From Bacteroidota bacterium (lineage in GTDB: Bacteria; Bacteroidota; Bacteroidia; Palsa-948): a stretch of 45,711 bases of DNA. Position numbers and translations under genes: made by a program. A model generated the notes under the pieces. The model was not told the DNA's origin. It did no database searches and saw only the letters and a program-made list of their open reading frames with translations. The stretch is from assembly GCA_016195025.1 (NCBI GenBank), contig JACQAL010000025.1:1-45711 (forward strand), written 5' to 3'. Numbering within the stretch: the first letter of the stretch is position 1; every line of letters starts with the position of its first letter. Of this stretch, positions 1,071 through 43,414 are shown piece after piece.

Positions 1071-1159
1071 AAAACTTTTCACTGAAATTTAAGATTCTAA
1101 GATGTCCAATCGGGTAATATATACCGAAGGTAGTTAGGTTTCAGAAAATCATAATTACT

Positions 1160-1242
1160 CCTACTAAATACCAATCTTTACTAATGTACTAATTGCTGCC
1201 TGTTTTGGATTGGTATATTGGTATGAATTGGTATTTAGCAGG
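1160..1242. repeat. Interspersed palindromic repeat, family B, copy 1
   Basis: An 83-bp imperfect palindrome. The left arm begins CCTACTAAATACCAATC, and the right arm ends in the near complement GGTATTTAGCAGG around a short centre CTGCCTGTTTT. An inverted copy, diverged by several bases, lies at 13488-13568. The rest of the stretch 1071-1411 holds nothing I recognise. Confidence 0.85.
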
Positions 1243-4909: not shown

Positions 4910-4918
4910 AAAAAATAT

Positions 4919-5032
4919 GATGCTAATATACTAATGTATACCAATGATACTAATTCAAAATACTAATATACAAATGAGCCAGTGTCATTCGTATTATTCG
5001 TTTCATTAGTACGCATTTGTATATTGGCATTA
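4919..5032. repeat. Palindromic repeat family A, cargo-free copy 1
   Basis: About 114 bp. The left arm starts ATGCTAATATACTAATG and the right arm ends CATTTGTATATTGGCATTA, an imperfect inverted repeat. The outer ends are the most conserved part and match the other family A copies. Confidence 0.88.
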
Positions 5033-5056
5033 GATTTTAATTGGAGTGAACTATGA

Positions 5057-5170
5057 AATGCGAATATACAAATGCGTACTAATGAAACTAATCATACTAA
5101 TATGCGAATAAGTTATTAGTATTCATTTGTATTATTTGTTTCATTAGTATCAATTAGTATATTGGCATTA
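5057..5170. repeat. Palindromic repeat family A, cargo-free copy 2
   Basis: A second 114-bp palindrome in tandem with the first (left end AATGCGAATATACAAATG, right end TAGTATATTGGCATTA). The 5 to 15 bases after each copy are nearly identical (ATTTTAATTGGAGT), and in copy 2 this is the end of lpxC-fabZ including its stop codon. A segment containing the element and the gene's last codons therefore seems to have duplicated. Confidence 0.88.
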
Positions 5171-5174
5171 GATT

Positions 5175-6641
5175 TTAATTGGAGTTCACAGGAACAGCAG
5201 CAGCCGAAGGAGCGCTCTTCACTCTGATTATCTGCGCGAGCATAATGGCTTCCATCACCGGCTTGTCATTCACATACGCAATACCGCTCATGCGGCAAAG
5301 TCCCCTGCGGATGGGCTCAAGAAGATGAAGGTCAAAAACCACCGTATCGCCCGGCAGCACTTTGTTCTTGAATTTTGCTTCTTCAATTTTCAAAAAGTAA
5401 GTGAGATAATTTTCGGGGTCGGGAACTGTTTTCAGAACAAGCACTCCTCCTGTTTGCGCCATGGCTTCCACCAGAAGAACTCCGGGCATTACGGGGTTTC
5501 CGGGAAAATGACCGCGGAAAAAATCTTCGTTCATCGAAACATTTTTCACGCCCACTACGTGCGTGGGAGTGAGTTCAAGAATTTTATCTATGAGTAGAAA
5601 GGGTTCGCGGTGCGGAAGTATTTTCATAATCTCATTGATGTCGAATAAAACTTTGTTCACATCAAACTTCGGAACTTCCGTTTTTCGGACGAGCGGTGCA
5701 ACGGATGCCGACTTGAATGTTTCTGCTTCTTTTTCTTTTTTAATCAGCTCTTTTATTTTTTTCGCGAAGGAAACATTTCCAGCATGACCCGGGCGGGCGG
5801 CAAGAATATGCGCTTTAATTGGCGCTCCAACCAGAGATAGGTCACCAACAATATCTAAAAGTTTGTGGCGCGCTGGCTCATTGTAAAAATGAAGAGTGGT
5901 ATTATTTAAAATTCCTTTTCCCTTCACTTCCACATTTGGTTTATTAAAAACTTTTCGAAGATGGGCAAGGTCTGCATCGGGCACAGGTTTATCCACAAGC
6001 ACAATCGCGTTATCCAGATCTCCGCCCTTGATTAAATTATGCTGAAGAAGCGTTTCGAGTTCGTGAAGGAAAACAAAAGTTCTGCATTTTGCAATTTCAG
6101 TTTTGAATTCGCCTACCTTATATATATGTGCGTGCTGCGTTCCGAGAACTTCTGAATTATAATCCACCATCACTGTTAAACGAAATTCTTCCTGCGGAAC
6201 TGCGAGCATTTCCACGTGCTTTGCATTATCTTCGTACGTGAGAATTGATTTCAGTTCGAAGTAAACACGCTCTGCATTTTGTTCTACCGCGCCTGCTTTT
6301 TCCAGCGCTTCGATGAAAGGCATGGAACTTCCGTTCATGATTGGAATTTCAGGGCCGGTAACTTCAATGAGGCAATTATCTATTTCCATTCCCACCAGCG
6401 CGGCAAGAACGTGTTCTGTTGTGTGAACTCGCGCTCCGTTTTGCTCGAGCGTTGTTCCGTGGTCGGTGGATATAACATTATCCGCATCTGCATCAATGAT
6501 GGGTTTGTTCGGCAAATCCACCCGCTGAAATTTATACCAGTGATTTTCAGAAGCGGGTTTGAAGGTGAGAGAAACTTTTTCTCCGGTATGAAGCCCTACT
6601 CCTGATACGGTAACTGGAGTTTTGATGGTGCGTTGTTTCAT
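5175..6641 (-). CDS. lpxC: Bifunctional UDP-3-O-acyl-GlcNAc deacetylase / 3-hydroxyacyl-ACP dehydratase
   Basis: 488 residues: an LpxC domain (about 1-310) joined to a FabZ domain (about 325-470), a fusion typical of Bacteroidota. LpxC is the zinc deacetylase that commits to lipid A synthesis. Its zinc ligand is in HTTEHVLAAL (His77), with the second site in ARHKLLDIVGDLSL and RPGHAGN. FabZ dehydrates 3-hydroxyacyl-ACP; its catalytic His (~378) is in RGHFPGNPVMPG and its Glu (~392) in VEAMAQTGG. The frame is open up to 6722, but those 27 extra codons are translated from a repeat arm, so the ATG at 6641 (MKQRTIKTPVTVSG) is the start. The domain pair couples the two pathways that compete for the hydroxyacyl-ACP pool. 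Confidence 0.96.
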   Translation of the reverse strand: MKQRTIKTPVTVSGVGLHTGEKVSLTFKPASENHWYKFQRVDLPNKPIIDADADNVISTDHGTTLEQNGARVHTTEHVLAALVGMEIDNCLIEVTGPEIPIMNGSSMPFIEALEKAGAVEQNAERVYFELKSILTYEDNAKHVEMLAVPQEEFRLTVMVDYNSEVLGTQHAHIYKVGEFKTEIAKCRTFVFLHELETLLQHNLIKGGDLDNAIVLVDKPVPDADLAHLRKVFNKPNVEVKGKGILNNTTLHFYNEPARHKLLDIVGDLSLVGAPIKAHILAARPGHAGNVSFAKKIKELIKKEKEAETFKSASVAPLVRKTEVPKFDVNKVLFDINEIMKILPHREPFLLIDKILELTPTHVVGVKNVSMNEDFFRGHFPGNPVMPGVLLVEAMAQTGGVLVLKTVPDPENYLTYFLKIEEAKFKNKVLPGDTVVFDLHLLEPIRRGLCRMSGIAYVNDKPVMEAIMLAQIIRVKSAPSAAAVPVNSN

Positions 6642-6647
6642 TATTAA

Positions 6648-7166
6648 AATGCGAATATACGAATGGATGCCAATGAAACTAATCCTACTAATAACAACTA
6701 TACAAATAAATACAAAAAGCAAATATTACAAAAACTTCTTTCTCACGTCCGTTTCTATCTGCACAATACGAACCGGTCTTACATATTCTGCTCTGAAATT
6801 TACAAGTAAACACAATCTTTTATCTGCACTTTGAAGATATCGCTGTGACTGAAAGTAATCTTCTTTAGTCACAACATCTTTTGTTTTTGCTTCTAAAACA
6901 ATTTTATCATCTATTAAAAAATCAACTCTATTCCCTGATTTTCCAATAGGATATTCCCGGATATATGGAATATTAACTTCTTTTAGTTTGTCTTCAATCG
7001 CATCGCAATACTGTTTCTCACGGGAGTATCTTCCTACTTTATTATGTACATCGTAACAAATCCCAACAATAGAATAAGAAAGTTCAGGATAAATTAATTT
7101 TTCTTCTCCATTCGTATTGTCATTTGTATTATTCGTTTCATTAGTATCAATTTGTATATTAGCATT
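6648..7166. mobile_element. Candidate cassette: family A arms bracketing a GxxExxY ORF
   Basis: A family A arm at 6648-6715 (begins AATGCGAATATACG) and an inverted arm at 7109-7166 (ends TTGTATATTAGCATT) face outward exactly as in the cargo-free copies at 4919, 5057 and 18385. Here the arms are about 390 bp apart and enclose the coding sequence of a GxxExxY domain on the minus strand. The right arm is translated in frame as the linker between LpxD and that domain. The structure suggests a cargo-bearing version of the palindrome inserted at the 3' end of lpxD. No target-site duplication could be defined by eye. Confidence 0.5.
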
Positions 7167-8186
7167 TGAAACAATCTTTTGCAATTCCTGAATGGTTTTT
7201 TGTATATCAGGTAAATTCTTAAACAGAACATATGACCTCTTATATTCTCCTATGGAAAAAGCAGGCGAACCCTGAACAGTTGTATTTTCTTCCTTGATGG
7301 TATTTCCAATTCCGGATTGTGCGGCAATTTTAGTTCCGTCAGCAATGGTGATGTGCCCCACAATTCCAACCTGTCCGCCAATGATGCAGTTCCTGCCGAC
7401 TTTTGTTGAGCCGGCAACTCCGGTTTGCGCAACAATGATTGTGTTCTCTCCAATCTCCGCGTTGTGTCCGATTTGAATTAAGTTGTCGAGCTTAGCGCCT
7501 TTGCGGATAATAGTGGAACCAAGCGTTGCTTTATCAATCGTAGTGTTGGAACCAATCTCCACATTATCTTCGATAATTACATTTCCGAGATGAACAATTT
7601 TATAATTGTCATTGTTTGATGCGAAACCAAAACCATCACTACCGATTACAACGCCCGCATGAATGGTGCAGTGCTTTCCAATGTGAGTGTCGGAATAAAT
7701 TTTTACTCCGGAATAAACAGTTGTGTTATCTCCAATCACGGAATTATCTCCGACAAAAACATTTGGATAGAGTTTCACATTATTTCCAATTTTCACATTC
7801 TCGCCTACGTATGCCGATGCTCCTATGTAAATATCTTTTCCAAGCGTTGCCGATTTTGCAATGGTTGCAAACTGCTCAATGCCGGTTTTATTATTTTTCA
7901 CCTGCTGATACATTTCCAAAAGTTTTCCAAACGCCACGCGCGAATCTTCCACGCGGATAAGCGTGCAGGTTTTTTTGAGTGGCTGTTCGGCAGAAAAATC
8001 TTTGTTCACTATTACCACCGTTGCATCCGTAGTATATAAATAAGAATTGTAAGCGGGATTGCTGAGAAACGAAAGCGAGCCGGATTTTCCTTCTTCAATT
8101 TTTGAAAGCGAGTTAACCACAGCATCGGGGTTTCCTTCTACTTTGCCATTAAGCAACTGTGCGATTTGGCTGGCTTTATATTCCAT
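6726..8186 (-). CDS. lpxD: UDP-3-O-(3-hydroxyacyl)glucosamine N-acyltransferase fused to a GxxExxY domain
   Basis: 486 residues against ~340 for normal LpxD. Residues 1-~335 are a complete LpxD: N-terminal uridine-binding region ([14 protein letters not shown]), hexapeptide-repeat beta-helix, catalytic His241 in [12 protein letters not shown], and the C-terminal helix ending at IQELQKIVS. LpxD adds the second acyl chain in lipid A synthesis. Residues 341-360, rich in Asn and Thr, are translated from a palindromic repeat arm. Residues ~361-486 are a GxxExxY family domain: REKQYCD contains the E-x-x-Y, and VDFLID...VLEAK (D422, E432, K434) plus YFQSQRYLQ fit a PD-(D/E)XK nuclease core. The fusion is probably secondary; whether the protein is processed, or the tail is tolerated, is unknown. 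Confidence 0.93.
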
Positions 8187-13487: not shown

Positions 13488-13568
13488 CCTACCAAATACC
13501 AATTCGTACCAATATACCAATCAAAACAGGCAACAATTAGTACATTCGTACAGATTAGTATTTAGTAG
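13488..13568. repeat. Interspersed palindromic repeat, family B, copy 2
   Basis: An 81-bp palindrome in inverted orientation relative to the copy at 1160-1242. It reads CCTACCAAATACCAATTC at the left and AGTATTTAGTAG at the right around the shared centre AAAACAGGCAAC. It fills nearly the entire gap between ald and the DUF4258 gene. Confidence 0.85.
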
Positions 13569-13573
13569 AACTA

Positions 13574-13981
13574 ATGACCACCGGAAAAAGAATACGCCTT
13601 TACCTTTTTGGTTTTCTGATTGGATGCGTCTTGGTTTATTTTATTCTTCTCCGTGGAAAAAACAGAAGTTATTGGCTTCCTGAAAACAGAATCAAAGAGC
13701 AGATGCTCAAAGGAAATTTGATTTATTCGGAACACGCCAAATGCAGAATGAAATGCCGGAACATCACCGAAGAAGAAGTAAAAGAAATTCTGAAAAAAGG
13801 AAGCGTGAATTTTTCTGAAAGCCATCCGCATGATTCACCTTGTCCTTCTTATGCGTTTGATGGAAAAACTTCCGCAGGTAAAAATGAACGAATCGTTTTT
13901 TCTTCGTGCGATACGCTCACAACAAAAGTGGTGACGGCAATTAATCTCGATTCAAAAAAAGATTCGTGTGAATGCAATTAG
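13574..13981 (+). CDS. Membrane-anchored DUF4258 protein
   Basis: 135 residues. One N-terminal membrane segment (YLFGFLIGCVLVYFILL, ~9-25) is followed by a DUF4258 domain: IYSEHAKCRMKCRNITEEEV (~50-69), then a Cys/His-containing stretch and RIVFSSCDTLTTKVVTAINL near the end. DUF4258 domains resemble RelE/HigB-type small alpha-beta folds, but the membrane anchor and the cysteines make a toxin role doubtful. The function is unknown. It is preceded by a family B palindrome and is convergent with the proline dehydrogenase gene. Confidence 0.8.
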   Translation: MTTGKRIRLYLFGFLIGCVLVYFILLRGKNRSYWLPENRIKEQMLKGNLIYSEHAKCRMKCRNITEEEVKEILKKGSVNFSESHPHDSPCPSYAFDGKTSAGKNERIVFSSCDTLTTKVVTAINLDSKKDSCECN

Positions 13982-15366: not shown

Positions 15367-16290
15367 ATGAATAAAGAAAAGAAAATAAAAGTTGCAATAC
15401 AAGGAGCCCGCGGTTCGTTCCACGAACTTGCAGGCATAAAACATTTTGGCGATAACATTCAAATAATGGAGTGCGTTACTTTCAAAAATGTATTTGACAG
15501 TGTAATAAACGGAGAAGCCGCTTTCGGAATTACTGCAATTGAAAACACCGTTGCCGGAACCATTCTGCCTAACTATGCAATGCTGAGAGAATCGGGCGTA
15601 AAAATTATTGGAGAAGTTTATCTGCACATTCAGCAAAATCTTTTGGCGCTGAAGGGGCAAACCATTGAAGACATAAAAGAAGTTCATTCCCACCCGATGG
15701 CAATAATGCAGTGCCAGAATTTTTTTGAGAAGCATCAGCACATTAAACTCATAGAAGCCGATGACACCGCCTCCCGCGCAAAATGGATTTTTGAAAATAA
15801 GTTAAAAGCAATGGGAGCCATTGCCGGCATTCACGTTGCCAAAATGTACAACCTGCAAATTCTTTCCGAAGGAATTGAAACGCATAAAAAGAATTTCACG
15901 CGCTTCTTAGTAATCACTTGCCCTCTCCCTGGCTCCCTCTCCCAATGGGAGAGGGATGGGGTGAGGGCTGACAAAGCAACCGCTTGCTTCAACGTTTCAA
16001 ATAAAAAAGGTTCTCTTGCAAAAGTGCTGACGAAACTTGCGGCTTATGATATTAATCTTTCAAAGATTCAATCTTTGCCGGTAATTGGTAAAGAATGGGA
16101 ATACTACATTCACGTGGATATGGAATTTGAAAATTATTCCAACTACAAAAAAGCGCTCGAAGAAATTATGCCTTCGCTGAATGAATTTAAAATTCTTGGC
16201 GAGTATAAGCGGGGAAATAAAACTGATGGTAATGAAGCAACTGGTAACGAAGTAACGAATTTGGTTACGAATATCACAAATCATTCGTAA
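15367..16290 (+). CDS. pheA: Prephenate dehydratase with two repeat-derived insertions
   Basis: 307 residues. It converts prephenate to phenylpyruvate. The catalytic domain spans 1-~184: VAIQGARGSFHE, GITAIENTVAGTI and the signature NFTRF (Thr178-Arg179-Phe180). An ACT regulatory domain follows (~207-285; KGSLAKVLTKLAAYDINLSKI), which normally binds Phe. Between them residues ~185-203 are translated from a G/C-rich palindrome (15921-15968), and the last ~16 residues (NEVTNLVTNITNHS) come from a second palindrome spanning the stop codon. There is no fused chorismate mutase; that activity is in the DAHP synthase gene downstream. First structural gene of the operon, behind the attenuator. Confidence 0.94.
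   Translation: MNKEKKIKVAIQGARGSFHELAGIKHFGDNIQIMECVTFKNVFDSVINGEAAFGITAIENTVAGTILPNYAMLRESGVKIIGEVYLHIQQNLLALKGQTIEDIKEVHSHPMAIMQCQNFFEKHQHIKLIEADDTASRAKWIFENKLKAMGAIAGIHVAKMYNLQILSEGIETHKKNFTRFLVITCPLPGSLSQWERDGVRADKATACFNVSNKKGSLAKVLTKLAAYDINLSKIQSLPVIGKEWEYYIHVDMEFENYSNYKKALEEIMPSLNEFKILGEYKRGNKTDGNEATGNEVTNLVTNITNHS
15921..15968. repeat. CCCTCTCCC palindrome inside pheA
   Basis: Contains the perfect palindrome CCCTCTCCC-AAT-GGGAGAGGG (15935-15955), extended by CCCTCTCCCT at the left and GGGGTGAGGGCT at the right. It resembles the widely dispersed CCCTCTCC/GGAGAGGG interspersed elements I recall from many bacterial genomes. It is translated in frame as part of PheA. Confidence 0.85.
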
Positions 16291-16323
16291 AATTCGTTAT
16301 TGAGATTCGTAACTTCGTTACCA
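16242..16323. repeat. 19-bp inverted repeat spanning the pheA stop codon
   Basis: TGGTAACGAAGTAACGAAT (16242-16260) is the reverse complement of ATTCGTAACTTCGTTACCA (16305-16323) except for one position. The pheA stop (16288-16290) lies inside the loop, which has further related words (TTGGTTACGAAT, TTCGTTA). Confidence 0.85.
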
Positions 16324-16342
16324 GGAAATTAAATTGACAAAC

Positions 16343-18375: not shown

Positions 18376-18384
18376 ATTTCAGTA

Positions 18385-18501
18385 TAATGCTAATATGCGA
18401 ATTGATACCAATGAAACTAATGATACGAATAAATACAAATATTAGTATGGCGGTTATTTGTATGATTGGTATCATTAGTACGCATTTGTATATTGGCATT
18501 A
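18385..18501. repeat. Palindromic repeat family A, cargo-free copy 3
   Basis: 117 bp. The left end TAATGCTAATATGCGAATTG and right end ATTTGTATATTGGCATTA form imperfect arms about 50 bp long that meet near the centre. It lies between tyrA and the DAHP synthase gene and would fold into a long hairpin in the operon mRNA. Confidence 0.88.
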
Positions 18502-18540
18502 CGCTTTAAAATATATTAGAATCATATAACACTATAAAAA

Positions 18541-35918: not shown

Positions 35919-36382
35919 ATTTTAGTTATTGGTTAATGAGTTATTAAGTTAATCAGTTAGTGCGGGTTTTTTTTCGTTTTGTTTTGCTTTTTTAAGATAA
36001 GAAATGTATCCGTTTAGTATTTTATTGCAAAGAAGAATTTTTGTTTTAAAACTACTTAACATGGTTTCATCCATGTAGTTTTCATCGCGTGCACAAATTA
36101 AATGATCCAGCACCTCCATTAAAGAACCTCGTGATTGGCGGCAGAATTGAATATTTTCCTGATAGTGGAATCTTCCGAACCCTTCAGCAATGTTTGCTGT
36201 AACTGACCTTGATGCTCTTTTTAATTGGGAGCATAAACTATATTTTTCTTCAGCAGGCAATGATTTTGTGAATTGAGAAATATCCTTTCTTAAATCTCTT
36301 GCTGTTTTCCAAACTTCTAATTCTTCAAATGTCTGCATTGCCTATTAGCTTATTTTTTGAATAACTTATTAACTTAAACTAA
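35919..36382. mobile_element. Candidate unit: four-helix-bundle gene between inverted arms
   Basis: The left arm (about 35919-35960, TTTTAGTTATTGGTTAATGA...) and right arm (36341-36382, reverse complement TTTTAGTTTAAGTTAATAAG...) match at roughly three quarters of ~40 positions. They enclose the four-helix-bundle ORF almost exactly: the left arm contains its stop codon and the right arm reaches the porin gene's stop codon. The unit separates porin and amt genes that otherwise would be adjacent. Confidence 0.45.
35949..36338 (-). CDS. Four-helix-bundle protein (S23 / 23S rRNA intervening-sequence protein family)
   Basis: 129 residues. MQTFEELEVWKTARDLRKDI, the conserved F-x-x-L-x-V-W-x-x-A/S-x-x-L start, then SLCSQLKRASRSVTANIAEGFGR (~55-77, key R-A-S-S-A-N-I-A-E-G) and the helix with GSLMEVLDHLICARD. 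The family is known from intervening sequences in 23S rRNA of Leptospira and Coxiella and as scattered stand-alone genes; its function is not established. Here it is a stand-alone gene between a porin-like gene and amt, bracketed by inverted arms. Confidence 0.92.
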   Translation of the reverse strand: MQTFEELEVWKTARDLRKDISQFTKSLPAEEKYSLCSQLKRASRSVTANIAEGFGRFHYQENIQFCRQSRGSLMEVLDHLICARDENYMDETMLSSFKTKILLCNKILNGYISYLKKAKQNEKKPALTD

Positions 36383-37473
36383 AACGAAACTCCAACGTTG
36401 AGCATTACTTCTGTGCGGCTGTCTTCTCCTTCTCCTTTCCAATGAAAAATCTCCTGCGCTGCATCGGTTTCAATTTGTCGTCCTTCCAGGCGAATATAGG
36501 AATTATCTGTGGGTTTGTATTCCACGCCTGCCGTTATTCCCCAAAGTTTATAGCCTGTGAGATTGCCGTTTATATCTTTGAATGCGCCAGACACTATTCC
36601 ATTCGGGTCATTAAATATTTCCTGCCGCGTGTAAATGCGAAATTTATTTGCAGGCAGATAACTTAAAACGCTTACCGCGCTCCACATGGTTGCCGGTTTT
36701 GTGTTATCGGCAAGATAAGAATGTTGTTGCCAGCAAACATCTCCGCCAACCGTGTATTTAAATTTCTTGCCTTTAAAATTCAGAAACACATTATGCGCTT
36801 GCCGAAAATAGGATAATGAGACGCTATCGGGCGAATCATCTCCGTAATATCCGCTATAACCAATATTAAATTTATCGCTGAAAACATACGTGATGAGAAG
36901 CCCTGCAGATTTTTGTTTGTTGTTGTCTTCATAAATTCCATAGCCGTTCAGCGCATAAAGAAAGATGGAAAGTTTTTCATCCGGATTATAGTTCAAACGA
37001 AAGCCCGCTTCGTAATACGGTTCGAAATAAGTTCCCACGGTAACCGAACTCGTGTAATTCTCTCTGGGGAAAAGCGCTTCGGTGCCGAAGTGCGTACGGA
37101 AAAATCCTCCATCAAGCCAGAGTTTTTTGTGCAAACGGATTCCTGCATTCGCTTCCTGGATGAAATTATATTTTGCCGACCAGGCGCTGAGCGGAATATC
37201 TCCGAAATGAACGGTGGCGACACCGCGCACTTTCTCTGCAGAATATTTTGCGGTGAGCATGGCAACATTCAATCCGAAATGATTGCTGCGCGGAGAAACG
37301 GATGGGAACTTTTGAAAATTTCCTGTCCCCACGGAATCAGTATAGAACGCATAATACGCATCCACATATCCGCTGATTTCTATTTTAGAAGAATCTTTTT
37401 GCTGTGAAAAGATTTTTGCTTCTGCTAAAAGCGCCAGCAGGAGCAGGACGAATACATTTTTTTTACCGGGCAT
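36379..37473 (-). CDS. Outer membrane beta-barrel protein (porin-like, OmpL/BBP2 type)
   Basis: 364 residues. A signal peptide (VFVLLLLALLAEAKIFSQ) is followed by EISGYVDAYYAFYTD (~30-45) and many alternating amphipathic strands (LWLDGGFFRTHFG, KLSIFLYALNGYGIY, KFNIGYSGYYGD), ending with Phe (LNVGVSF), as expected for a BAM-inserted barrel of ~16 strands. NGYG-I-Y-E-D and 'GVEYKPTDNSYIRLEGR' are typical of the BBP2 group. The exact promoter at 37492-37522 puts the transcript start downstream of the TTG at 37494, so the ATG at 37473 is the start. It precedes amt in the same direction; it may be a general or nitrogen-related porin. Confidence 0.88.
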   Translation of the reverse strand: MPGKKNVFVLLLLALLAEAKIFSQQKDSSKIEISGYVDAYYAFYTDSVGTGNFQKFPSVSPRSNHFGLNVAMLTAKYSAEKVRGVATVHFGDIPLSAWSAKYNFIQEANAGIRLHKKLWLDGGFFRTHFGTEALFPRENYTSSVTVGTYFEPYYEAGFRLNYNPDEKLSIFLYALNGYGIYEDNNKQKSAGLLITYVFSDKFNIGYSGYYGDDSPDSVSLSYFRQAHNVFLNFKGKKFKYTVGGDVCWQQHSYLADNTKPATMWSAVSVLSYLPANKFRIYTRQEIFNDPNGIVSGAFKDINGNLTGYKLWGITAGVEYKPTDNSYIRLEGRQIETDAAQEIFHWKGEGEDSRTEVMLNVGVSF

Positions 37474-37553: not shown

Positions 37554-37943
37554 TTATAAAAACCTTTCCCGCACCTCTTTCATTGGAATCATGCACTCGT
37601 TTTTTTTCCCCCACCACTTGTAGCGGTTGCGGGCGATTATATCATACGCAAAATCGCGGATGAATTTTGGAACGATAATTAAAAGATAAACACTGAAATA
37701 AATTCCGCCCACATGTTTCATCACTCTCAGCAGGGAGGATTTAGTATAAACCTTTCCGTTATCAATGAGCGCGGCAGAGTCGGTTTCAGCAGGAATATTG
37801 TGTTGCTGCATTATTTTTTTCCCCGCTTCTGATTGCAGCGCGGCAAAGCGGAACTTCTTTTTCTTGTCATGCCTGATGACGAAATTCACCCACGCGTTGC
37901 AGTAATTGCAAACGCCATCGAAAAGAAGAACGGGGGAGTTCAT
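37554..37943 (-). CDS. DUF393 (DCC-type) thiol-disulfide oxidoreductase-like protein
   Basis: 129 residues, full family length. It begins PVLLFDGVCNYCNAWVNFVI, with the D-G-V-C-x-x-C signature (~8-14); FRFAALQSEAGKKIM and a Y-T-K-S-S-A-L-L-type segment follow, and a helical end YKWWGKKNECMIP. The family has a thioredoxin-like fold and is thought to be redox-active, without a settled role. A 3'-truncated, ~93% identical copy lies at 42794-43021. Confidence 0.9.
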   Translation of the reverse strand: MNSPVLLFDGVCNYCNAWVNFVIRHDKKKKFRFAALQSEAGKKIMQQHNIPAETDSAALIDNGKVYTKSSLLRVMKHVGGIYFSVYLLIIVPKFIRDFAYDIIARNRYKWWGKKNECMIPMKEVRERFL

Positions 37944-42668: not shown

Positions 42669-42793
42669 CGGCAAAGTGATTAGCGGTATATATTTTTCAC
42701 TTACCTAACCTCTTTTTTACGGACTTGCTCCGGAAAGGTTTCAACTAAAACTATTTTTTTCTTTTGATAATCATTTGCTTCCGGGGTAAATTG

Positions 42794-43021
42794 TTAAAAC
42801 TCTCTCAGCAGGTAGGACTTAGTATAAACCTTTCCGTTATCAATGAGCGCGGCAGAGTCGGTTTCAGCAGGAATGTTATACTGCTGCATTATTTTTTTTC
42901 CCGCTTGTGATTGCAGCGCGGCAAAGCGGAACTTCTTTTCCGTATCATGCCTGATAATGAAATTCACCCACGCGTTGCAGTAGTTGCAAACGCCATCGAA
43001 AAGGAGAACGGGGGAGTTCAT
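42794..43021 (-). pseudogene. 3'-truncated duplicate of the DUF393 gene
   Basis: Codons 1-73 match the intact gene at 37554-37943 at about 93% nucleotide identity, including the D-G-V-C-x-x-C motif. Homology stops near 42801, after the LLR codons, and the frame ends two residues later (LLREF) instead of continuing for ~55 residues. The thioredoxin-like fold would be incomplete. Immediately before its ATG the sequence is a 21-bp minisatellite, so the original promoter is lost. Confidence 0.88.
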
Positions 43022-43025
43022 GCAG

Positions 43026-43298
43026 GCAGAATCATTCTTTCATCCGACCGAACGGAAAATTCACCCGGCAGAATCACTCTTTCATCCGACCGAACGGAAA
43101 ATTCATCCGACCGAACCACTCTTTCATCCGGACGAACGGAAAATTCACCCGACCGAACAACTCTTTCATCCGACCGAACGGAAAATTCATCCGACCGAAC
43201 AACTCTTTCATCCGACCGAACAACTCTTTCATCCGGACGAACGGAAAATTCACCCGACCGAACAACTCTTTCATCCGTCTTAATCACTCTTTCAATTT
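43026..43298. repeat. 21-bp minisatellite with two alternating unit types
   Basis: Twelve 21-bp units and a degenerate thirteenth. Type 1 ends AACGGAAAATTCAYCCG, type 2 ends AACAACTCTTTCATCCG, both starting ACCG. The order is mostly alternating, with one doubled type 2 unit, which suggests a 42-bp higher-order repeat that later slipped. Most frames on both strands are open because 21 is a multiple of three. The stretch 43299-43414 to the next gene holds nothing I recognise. Confidence 0.97.
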
Positions 43299-43414
43299 TT
43301 GCACTTTCCGCGACTTTTTGGCAGGGTTTGGCAGGGAAAGAATATTTTGTAAAAGAAAAAGAGGTGAACGGAGGAGCAGGTCAACCGTTCCGGAAAGCAG
43401 AAATTGAGCAGTTT

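Follow-up and report, generated by a model that had tools for sequence, protein, structure and literature searches.

In REPtrons and TIRtrons, the type of repeat is associated with the protein that is encoded alongside it, a RAYT or a TIRYT (PMC3733652). The intervening sequences (IVS) of ribosomal RNA genes have complementary ends that are cut by RNase III, and the MITE BrickBuilt of Porphyromonas gingivalis is a short, cargo-free derivative with terminal inverted repeats (PMC4990558 and PMC4596501, respectively). The TAACTGA direct repeats of Beggiatoaceae (PMC4679880) were considered as a further precedent and rejected, as S23 proteins, palindromes and GxxExxY proteins all go unmentioned there. 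In the openly licensed PMC literature we found no description of an association of GxxExxY, PDDEXK_3 or S23 proteins with inverted arms, which is weak evidence given that coverage of this literature was partial. To our knowledge, the GxxExxY proteins and the four-helix-bundle (S23/IVS) proteins are both abundant families that lack an assigned role.

Here we describe a locus in a window of 45,711 nucleotides, by which we mean the whole analyzed stretch of contig JACQAL010000025.1 (Bacteroidota bacterium, assembly GCA_016195025.1). At this locus a GxxExxY ORF lies between inverted arms at the junction of lpxD and lpxC. We are very confident that gene and arms together form a cassette, and we consider it on balance probable that this is a widespread cassette whose nuclease acts on its own arms and spreads them. 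That the cassette mobilises itself has, in our judgment, slightly better than an even chance.

The LpxD-GxxExxY locus

Read on the minus strand from 8186 to 6726, the ORF matches LpxD over residues 2-339 (NF002060, 391 bits) and the GxxExxY family over residues 368-474 (TIGR04256, 54.8 bits, cut-off 35), and the latter domain also matches PF13366 (PDDEXK_3) at 60.4 bits against a cut-off of 22 (Table 1). The two 54-nt arms pair without gaps at 43 of 54 positions (80%), and together they score 26.5. None of 6,455 other placements with this geometry in the window exceeds 18, and random placements have their 99th percentile at 13. Coordinates, profiles and complementarity agree with an initial reading made from the letters of the window alone (hereafter the sequence-only reading), which had placed a GxxExxY ORF between inverted arms and in frame with LpxD; its estimate of about 390 bp between the arms was too short, the inner distance being about 419 bp. 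One arm had also been taken to be translated as the linker, and 7170-7117, read in the LpxD frame, indeed gives 18 residues that make up a portion of the LpxD-GxxExxY linker. With the ATG at 6640 as the start of lpxC, the cassette occupies the entire gap between lpxD and lpxC.

Table 1. Positions of the cassettes, their parts and the cargo-free palindromes in the window
Feature	Position	Strand	Units, basis or remarks
Cargo-free palindrome, second arm family (shared with GxxExxY cassette L002 in the same genome)	1154..1242		
Cargo-free palindrome, same arm family as the lpxD cassette, lpxA-lpxC junction	4916..5047 (approx.)		
Cargo-free palindrome, same arm family, in tandem with the 4916..5047 copy	5054..5185 (approx.)		
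lpxC-fabZ	5175..6640	-	start 3 nt beyond the cassette; stop codon within a cargo-free arm
Arm adjoining lpxC (3' arm by orientation of the GxxExxY ORF)	6644..6697		ACGAAT/ACTAAT-type units; complementarity
GxxExxY / PD-(D/E)XK domain	6726..7112	-	TIGR04256, PF13366, alignment of 37 homologues, AlphaFold model
Fused ORF, 486 aa: LpxD residues 1 to ~339, arm-encoded linker, GxxExxY domain	6726..8186	-	
Likely native GxxExxY start codon, ATG	7109..7111	-	MEKKN*, one base out of the domain frame
Arm adjoining lpxD (5' arm by orientation of the GxxExxY ORF)	7117..7170		in-frame, linker-coding
Cargo-free palindrome, second arm family	13488..13575		
Cargo-free palindrome, same arm family as the lpxD cassette	18383..18516 (approx.)		arms with 84% and 78% identity to references
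Four-helix-bundle cassette	35920..36384	-	gene 35949-36338; arms 35920-35945 and 36360-36384

Repeats of other kinds are also present in the window. Direct repeats of 21 nt form arrays at 1723-2050 and 42987-43301, with eight to eleven copies kept in register, and a 230-nt segment is duplicated with 92% identity at 37714-37943 and 42792-43021, about 5 kb apart.

Insertion at the end of lpxD

All six of the genomes from the same genus carry an unfused lpxD (open frames of 343-364 aa), and the insertion is missing at the lpxD-lpxC junction of relatives. In two of these genomes (G001 and G004) the junction is bare, with 11-12 bp from the lpxD stop to the lpxC ATG; in G003 and G002, the lpxD stop is followed at once by arm-only palindromes, which belong to other families and have CGCAGAG and CACAGAT units. 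The arm sequence in the window genome replaces the final eight or nine LpxD codons known from relatives, and it is because of this replacement that LpxD reads through into the nuclease. The unfused lpxD genes and bare junctions of relatives bear out the proposal of the sequence-only reading that a cassette entered the end of lpxD, and no LpxD-GxxExxY fusion lacking the arms occurs among these relatives. In this genome, one copy of the cassette has inserted some nine codons ahead of the lpxD stop.

The ATG at 7111 matches the usual MEKK..YPELS start of related cassettes, such as the in-frame start MEKKLIDDLVYPELSF in cassette L002, but here it is read as MEKKN* and lies one base off the domain frame. 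In other words, the fusion hinges on one base, located within or close to an A5 run, and may stem from a genuine slip or from a mistake in the assembly. A serious minority possibility is that LpxD-GxxExxY is not one real protein, and that two otherwise overlapping ORFs are joined through a one-base indel, whether a real one or an error in the A5 run at 7098-7102. This would account for a start codon that is displaced here and in frame in related cassettes, and the window is a single contig of a 79-contig draft assembly. However, the GxxExxY domain is intact and read-through fusions are found elsewhere: 1-deoxyxylulose 5-phosphate reductoisomerase (Dxr) is fused to GxxExxY in G006 (L275, C241), and a thioesterase-like protein in G003 is extended by similar read-through. 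The linker of the Dxr fusion holds about five copies of an arm-derived repeat of about 16 residues, of the ELMPTTQTDANAAKKD type.

The window genome also encodes a second, unfused LpxD with 59% identity (C74:14880-15881, L025). Because the native ATG is out of frame, a second LpxD is available and other host genes are likewise extended, the LpxD fusion is best read as incidental, a side effect of inserting close to a stop codon, rather than as a new function. The sequence-only reading had taken the ORF to extend an essential enzyme, and the in-frame extension is there as assembled. Homologues of the second LpxD are present in other genomes of the genus as well.

A predicted Cas4/RecB-like nuclease

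In 37 aligned sequences, including the window domain, D58, E68xK70 and Q82xxxY86 are invariant. D422, E432 and K434 of the fused ORF, singled out as core residues before any alignment was available, correspond to D58, E68 and K70. DNA nucleases of the RecB/Cas4 type typically have a QxxxY motif that follows ExK. The AlphaFold model of the window domain (pLDDT 88) has a PD-(D/E)XK fold that resembles Cas4, lambda exonuclease and Hjc. The structure that matches it best is that of the Cas4 protein SSO0001 (Z 10.1, rmsd 5.0 over 98 aligned residues), and the next are many restriction-enzyme-like nucleases and Holliday-junction resolvases at Z below 8, which may reflect just the common fold. Judged from this model, GxxExxY is a small, stand-alone predicted nuclease of the Cas4/RecB-like PD-(D/E)XK type, 115-130 aa long. 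Searching solved structures by sequence returned only chance-level matches to RelE. A defence function was considered and dropped, as no PADLOC model of anti-phage defence matched at E values up to 1.

Gene and arms as a general unit

Five GxxExxY genes and 11 four-helix-bundle genes are present in the window genome, and at 16 of 16 loci of the two families the inverted arms exceed the 99th percentile of random placements, with arm sequences that vary from locus to locus. Counting arms as present at a left-right score of at least 14, we found them at 71% of 75 GxxExxY loci in 60 genomes of the same class, compared with 5% when flanks were swapped and 0.2% at random positions. This ties GxxExxY genes in relatives to the arms, as the sequence-only reading had anticipated. 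For four-helix-bundle loci in 60 genomes of the same class, the corresponding values are 78% of 81, 2% and 0.5%. Further GxxExxY loci from more than ten phyla carry arms at 68% of 77 usable loci, mostly with CRCARAG-type units; these loci include Alpha- and Betaproteobacteria, Planctomycetes, Acidobacteria, Chloroflexi, Verrucomicrobia, Cyanobacteria, Nitrospinota, Omnitrophota and Ignavibacteria, and errors in the binning of metagenome-assembled genomes (MAGs) may blur single cases. About 30% of GxxExxY loci lack arms at the threshold used.

The four-helix-bundle genes, whose family is that of the 23S rRNA intervening sequences, form a second class of cassette with 7-bp arm units. The gene in the window matches TIGR02436 at 103 bits, and its protein also matches Avd of diversity-generating retroelements (PHROG 3206). 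We know of no nuclease activity in four-helix-bundle proteins, yet their cassettes have the same architecture. The idea that the arms belong to GxxExxY is thus correct in that the association is class-specific, but the possession of arms is not unique to it, as four-helix-bundle genes have an arm class of their own.

Cassettes adjoin stop codons, the median distance from outer arm edge to stop being 1 nt for the four-helix-bundle class and 7.5 nt for GxxExxY (same class). Where the neighbours are co-directional, the cargo has their orientation in 113 of 114 cases (68 to 1 for GxxExxY, 45 to 0 for the four-helix-bundle genes). In Sphingomonas parapaucimobilis, a GxxExxY cassette with CGCGAAG arms (L287) lies within the fabD-fabG pair, directly after the fabD stop.

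Among 50,697 phage records there was no match; eight plasmid records have one, at least some of them resembling chromosomal stretches or secondary chromosomes. GxxExxY copies are diverse within a single genome, without recent bursts. Shared words of at least 6 nt at the outer edges of cassettes show a weak excess (21% vs 11%), and no fixed target-site duplication was found at these edges. In no case was an insertion captured by comparing near-identical genomes, so the ends given are putative, as any target duplication would be.

The proB-argF junction of Flavobacterium

Across 30 Flavobacterium species, about a dozen carry a GxxExxY cassette after the proB stop at the proB-argF junction. One occupant of this junction (L312) is a relic in which the ORF is internally deleted and both arms are kept, and most of the other junctions hold arm-only palindromes from at least three unrelated families. 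A further junction (L322) is a nested mosaic, with remnants of GxxExxY-type palindromes inside the loop of a palindrome family built of GTTTAATCG units, and another insert is also found among the occupants. Searched as an exact pattern, the AATTAGAAAATTAG palindrome of Flavobacterium does not turn out to be a high-copy family.

The position of the arms right after stop codons is what would be expected if they were ordinary terminators or mRNA-stabilising hairpins that had grown round a resident small gene, with nothing mobile involved. However, related species show bare, arm-only, cassette and relic states at one and the same junction. Moreover, dispersed copies have the same units, and one arm grammar extends across many phyla. 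We therefore regard such a static origin as very improbable.

The dN/dS of GxxExxY in the Flavobacterium proB-argF cassettes is about 0.09, which indicates that the protein is under selection. A value of 0.09 across many Flavobacterium species could equally well reflect a host function.

Arm units follow the protein

GxxExxY arms are arrays of direct units: within each arm a 6-8-nt unit is repeated three or four times in the same orientation, at a spacing of about 8-12 bp, and the best self-shift is 8-10 nt in 76% of arms. In four-helix-bundle arms the best self-shift is 7 or 14 nt in 80%, and a classifier based on arm 3-mers separates the two cargo classes with 93.5% accuracy. Within the GxxExxY family, distances between proteins correlate with distances between arms (Mantel 0.46 in one class; partial Mantel 0.40 over 105 loci with GC removed, the best permutation reaching 0.19, p 0.002), and the correlation is 0.36 for pairs with a protein distance above 0.4; it is weaker, 0.15, for the four-helix-bundle family. 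Proteins with NGFQEVxYQRA go with GTCTGAACxxTGAT arms, those with YGFLEKVYENA go with GAACGCxGATGACGC arms, and one GLLEKVYEIC subgroup goes with GCCACTAAAACAC arms.

Left and right GxxExxY arms differ at 9% of unit positions and at 37% of spacer positions, and their mismatches are not enriched for the sense-strand G-U type (113 vs 131). Because the unit is kept, the spacer is not, and a G-U excess is absent, it appears to be the unit sequence rather than RNA pairing that is conserved. This pattern points to a protein that would read the unit sequence in DNA, as opposed to the upkeep of an RNA stem.

A different explanation is that the arms form an RNA hairpin round the ORF, as in 23S rRNA intervening sequences, with insertion via transcripts and with GxxExxY or the four-helix-bundle protein acting on RNA. 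Such a route would fit the nearly fixed orientation of the cargo relative to co-directional neighbours, although fixed orientation is equally expected if unexpressed copies decay. It would also fit the membership of the four-helix-bundle protein in the S23/Avd family, given the complementary, RNase III-cut ends of the rRNA insertions (PMC4990558). The lack of a sense-strand G-U type excess rules against pairing of the arms at the RNA level, and the conservation of units without spacers argues in the same direction. In addition, the fold matches of GxxExxY are mostly DNA nucleases, though tRNA-splicing endonucleases are also listed among them. An RNA-based origin thus seems to us improbable, with only a small chance of being right.

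Cargo-free palindromes

The sequence-only reading had counted three cargo-free copies of the lpxD-cassette arms in the window, and all three were recovered (Table 1). Another cargo-free palindrome, CTGGTAACGAAGTAACGAAT... at 16241-16324, belongs to the arm family of GxxExxY cassette L004 of the same genome. Our palindrome census consists of a 446-kb sample of this genome together with pattern searches. The 446 kb contain 56 short-loop inverted repeats against 3 in a mirror control, some ordinary hairpins being included in this number. As an exact pattern, the TACTAAT array occurs at 20 separate cargo-free places in the genome and the reversed pattern at none. A loop motif, AACAGCC / GGCTGTT, recurs in many of the cargo-free TACTAAT palindromes (C4:25818, C64:5890, C38:19247, C69:21637 and others), whereas the GxxExxY cassettes of this genome do not show it at their inner ends.

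In the set of 60 genomes, cargo-free CRCAGAG palindromes are present in 15 of the 43 with GxxExxY and in none of the 17 without it (Fisher p 0.006), and in G003 most of the matches are one repeated sequence at contig ends. A 47-bp sequence that contains CACAGAG units is repeated in G003 at the ends of contigs C13, C31, C50, C80 and C88, which fits an assembly-breaking repeat or the end of an insertion sequence. The notion of a nuclease-encoding parent with arm-only derivatives matches the comparison, in that palindromes with the same units are dispersed in the genome and tied to the presence of GxxExxY.

Proposed mobility of the cassette

Comparison between genomes shows gene and arms travelling as a unit, with an arm sequence tied to the protein clade and arm-only palindromes of the same units dispersed. 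It likewise shows an insertion at lpxD, a preference of cassettes and palindromes for the stop codons of co-oriented genes, and cargo-free relatives whose occurrence depends on the presence of the gene family. From the association and the co-variation, we infer that GxxExxY itself may move the palindromes. We hypothesize that the nuclease recognises its own arms at the DNA level, binding their unit arrays, and that it would cut or process these arrays, by which the cassette spreads and arm-only derivatives spread in trans; this action is likened to the presumed action of RAYT transposases on REPs. No published demonstration that GxxExxY binds or cuts its arms was found.

The main rival of the self-mobilising reading treats the arms as the mobile or self-renewing part and the GxxExxY or four-helix-bundle gene as a passenger or host-useful gene. 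The arms would then be spread by host enzymes, by replication slippage or template switching at palindromes, or by the transposase of another element. Cargo-free palindromes do far outnumber cassettes (20 places of one arm type vs five GxxExxY genes), one architecture houses two unrelated cargos, and the cargo at a fixed site is under strong purifying selection, all of which would suit a passenger. On the other hand, a passenger would hardly lead one to expect arm units that co-vary with the clade of the cargo protein and separate the two cargos in 93.5% of cases, or cargo-free palindromes of the tested type that are missing where GxxExxY is missing. We consider a passenger role unlikely, though far from negligible.

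A stronger form of the self-mobilising reading, to which we give somewhat less than an even chance, is that these cassettes are a class of autonomous mobile element. The stand-alone Cas4/RecB-like nuclease would be the sole element-encoded protein needed, arm units would evolve with the protein, arm-only palindromes would be non-autonomous offspring, and the four-helix-bundle protein would drive a parallel second class. If this is true, one mechanism would explain two large orphan families and much of the intergenic palindrome load, in Bacteroidota as well as in other phyla. Both orphan families now have a partner in DNA, namely class-specific inverted arrays with a conserved insertion context and cargo-free offspring, which makes them testable on defined substrates. 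Should GxxExxY prove to act on its arms, the cassette would represent a type of element that lacks a known transposase, places short palindromes at gene ends and sometimes extends host proteins, for example LpxD and Dxr.

Comparison with known systems

By analogy, the GxxExxY cassette appears to work most like a REPtron, minus the HUH-Y1 transposase. As in REPtrons and TIRtrons, one small ORF lies between inverted repeats and non-autonomous palindromes are dispersed. However, the only ORF of the cassette is a PD-(D/E)XK protein (D..ExK..QxxxY) with no HUH-Y1 tyrosine transposase, and its arms are arrays of direct units in place of GTAG-tagged REPs. Intervening sequences of 23S rRNA similarly have an ORF between complementary, stem-forming ends, and the second cassette class encodes the same family (TIGR02436). 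Unlike these insertions, the cassettes are found at the 3' ends of protein genes, the present copy between lpxD and lpxC, and the ORF in this copy is a GxxExxY nuclease-fold protein and not S23p; no Rfam family reached its gathering score in the window.

With MITEs and insertion sequences, the GxxExxY cassette shares terminal inverted repeats and short cargo-free derivatives, but it has no DDE or other known transposase and its arms vary between loci of one genome. Homing endonucleases of the I-Ssp6803I type are, as GxxExxY is, small single-domain PD-(D/E)XK nucleases encoded by an insertion. In contrast to theirs, the GxxExxY insertion involves neither intron nor intein, its arms are conserved rather than a long target, and its insertion sites are many. 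Cas4/RecB nucleases are similar in that SSO0001 is the best structural match and QxxxY follows ExK. Unlike Cas4, GxxExxY stands alone, the window copy being flanked by lpxD and lpxC with no adjacent cas genes (neither cas1 nor cas2) or CRISPR array, and the 37-sequence alignment lacks the four conserved cysteines of the Fe-S cluster. A palindrome-bounded mobile cassette with miniature offspring is a known kind of element, and the class would be a new one if the nuclease proves to be its mobiliser.
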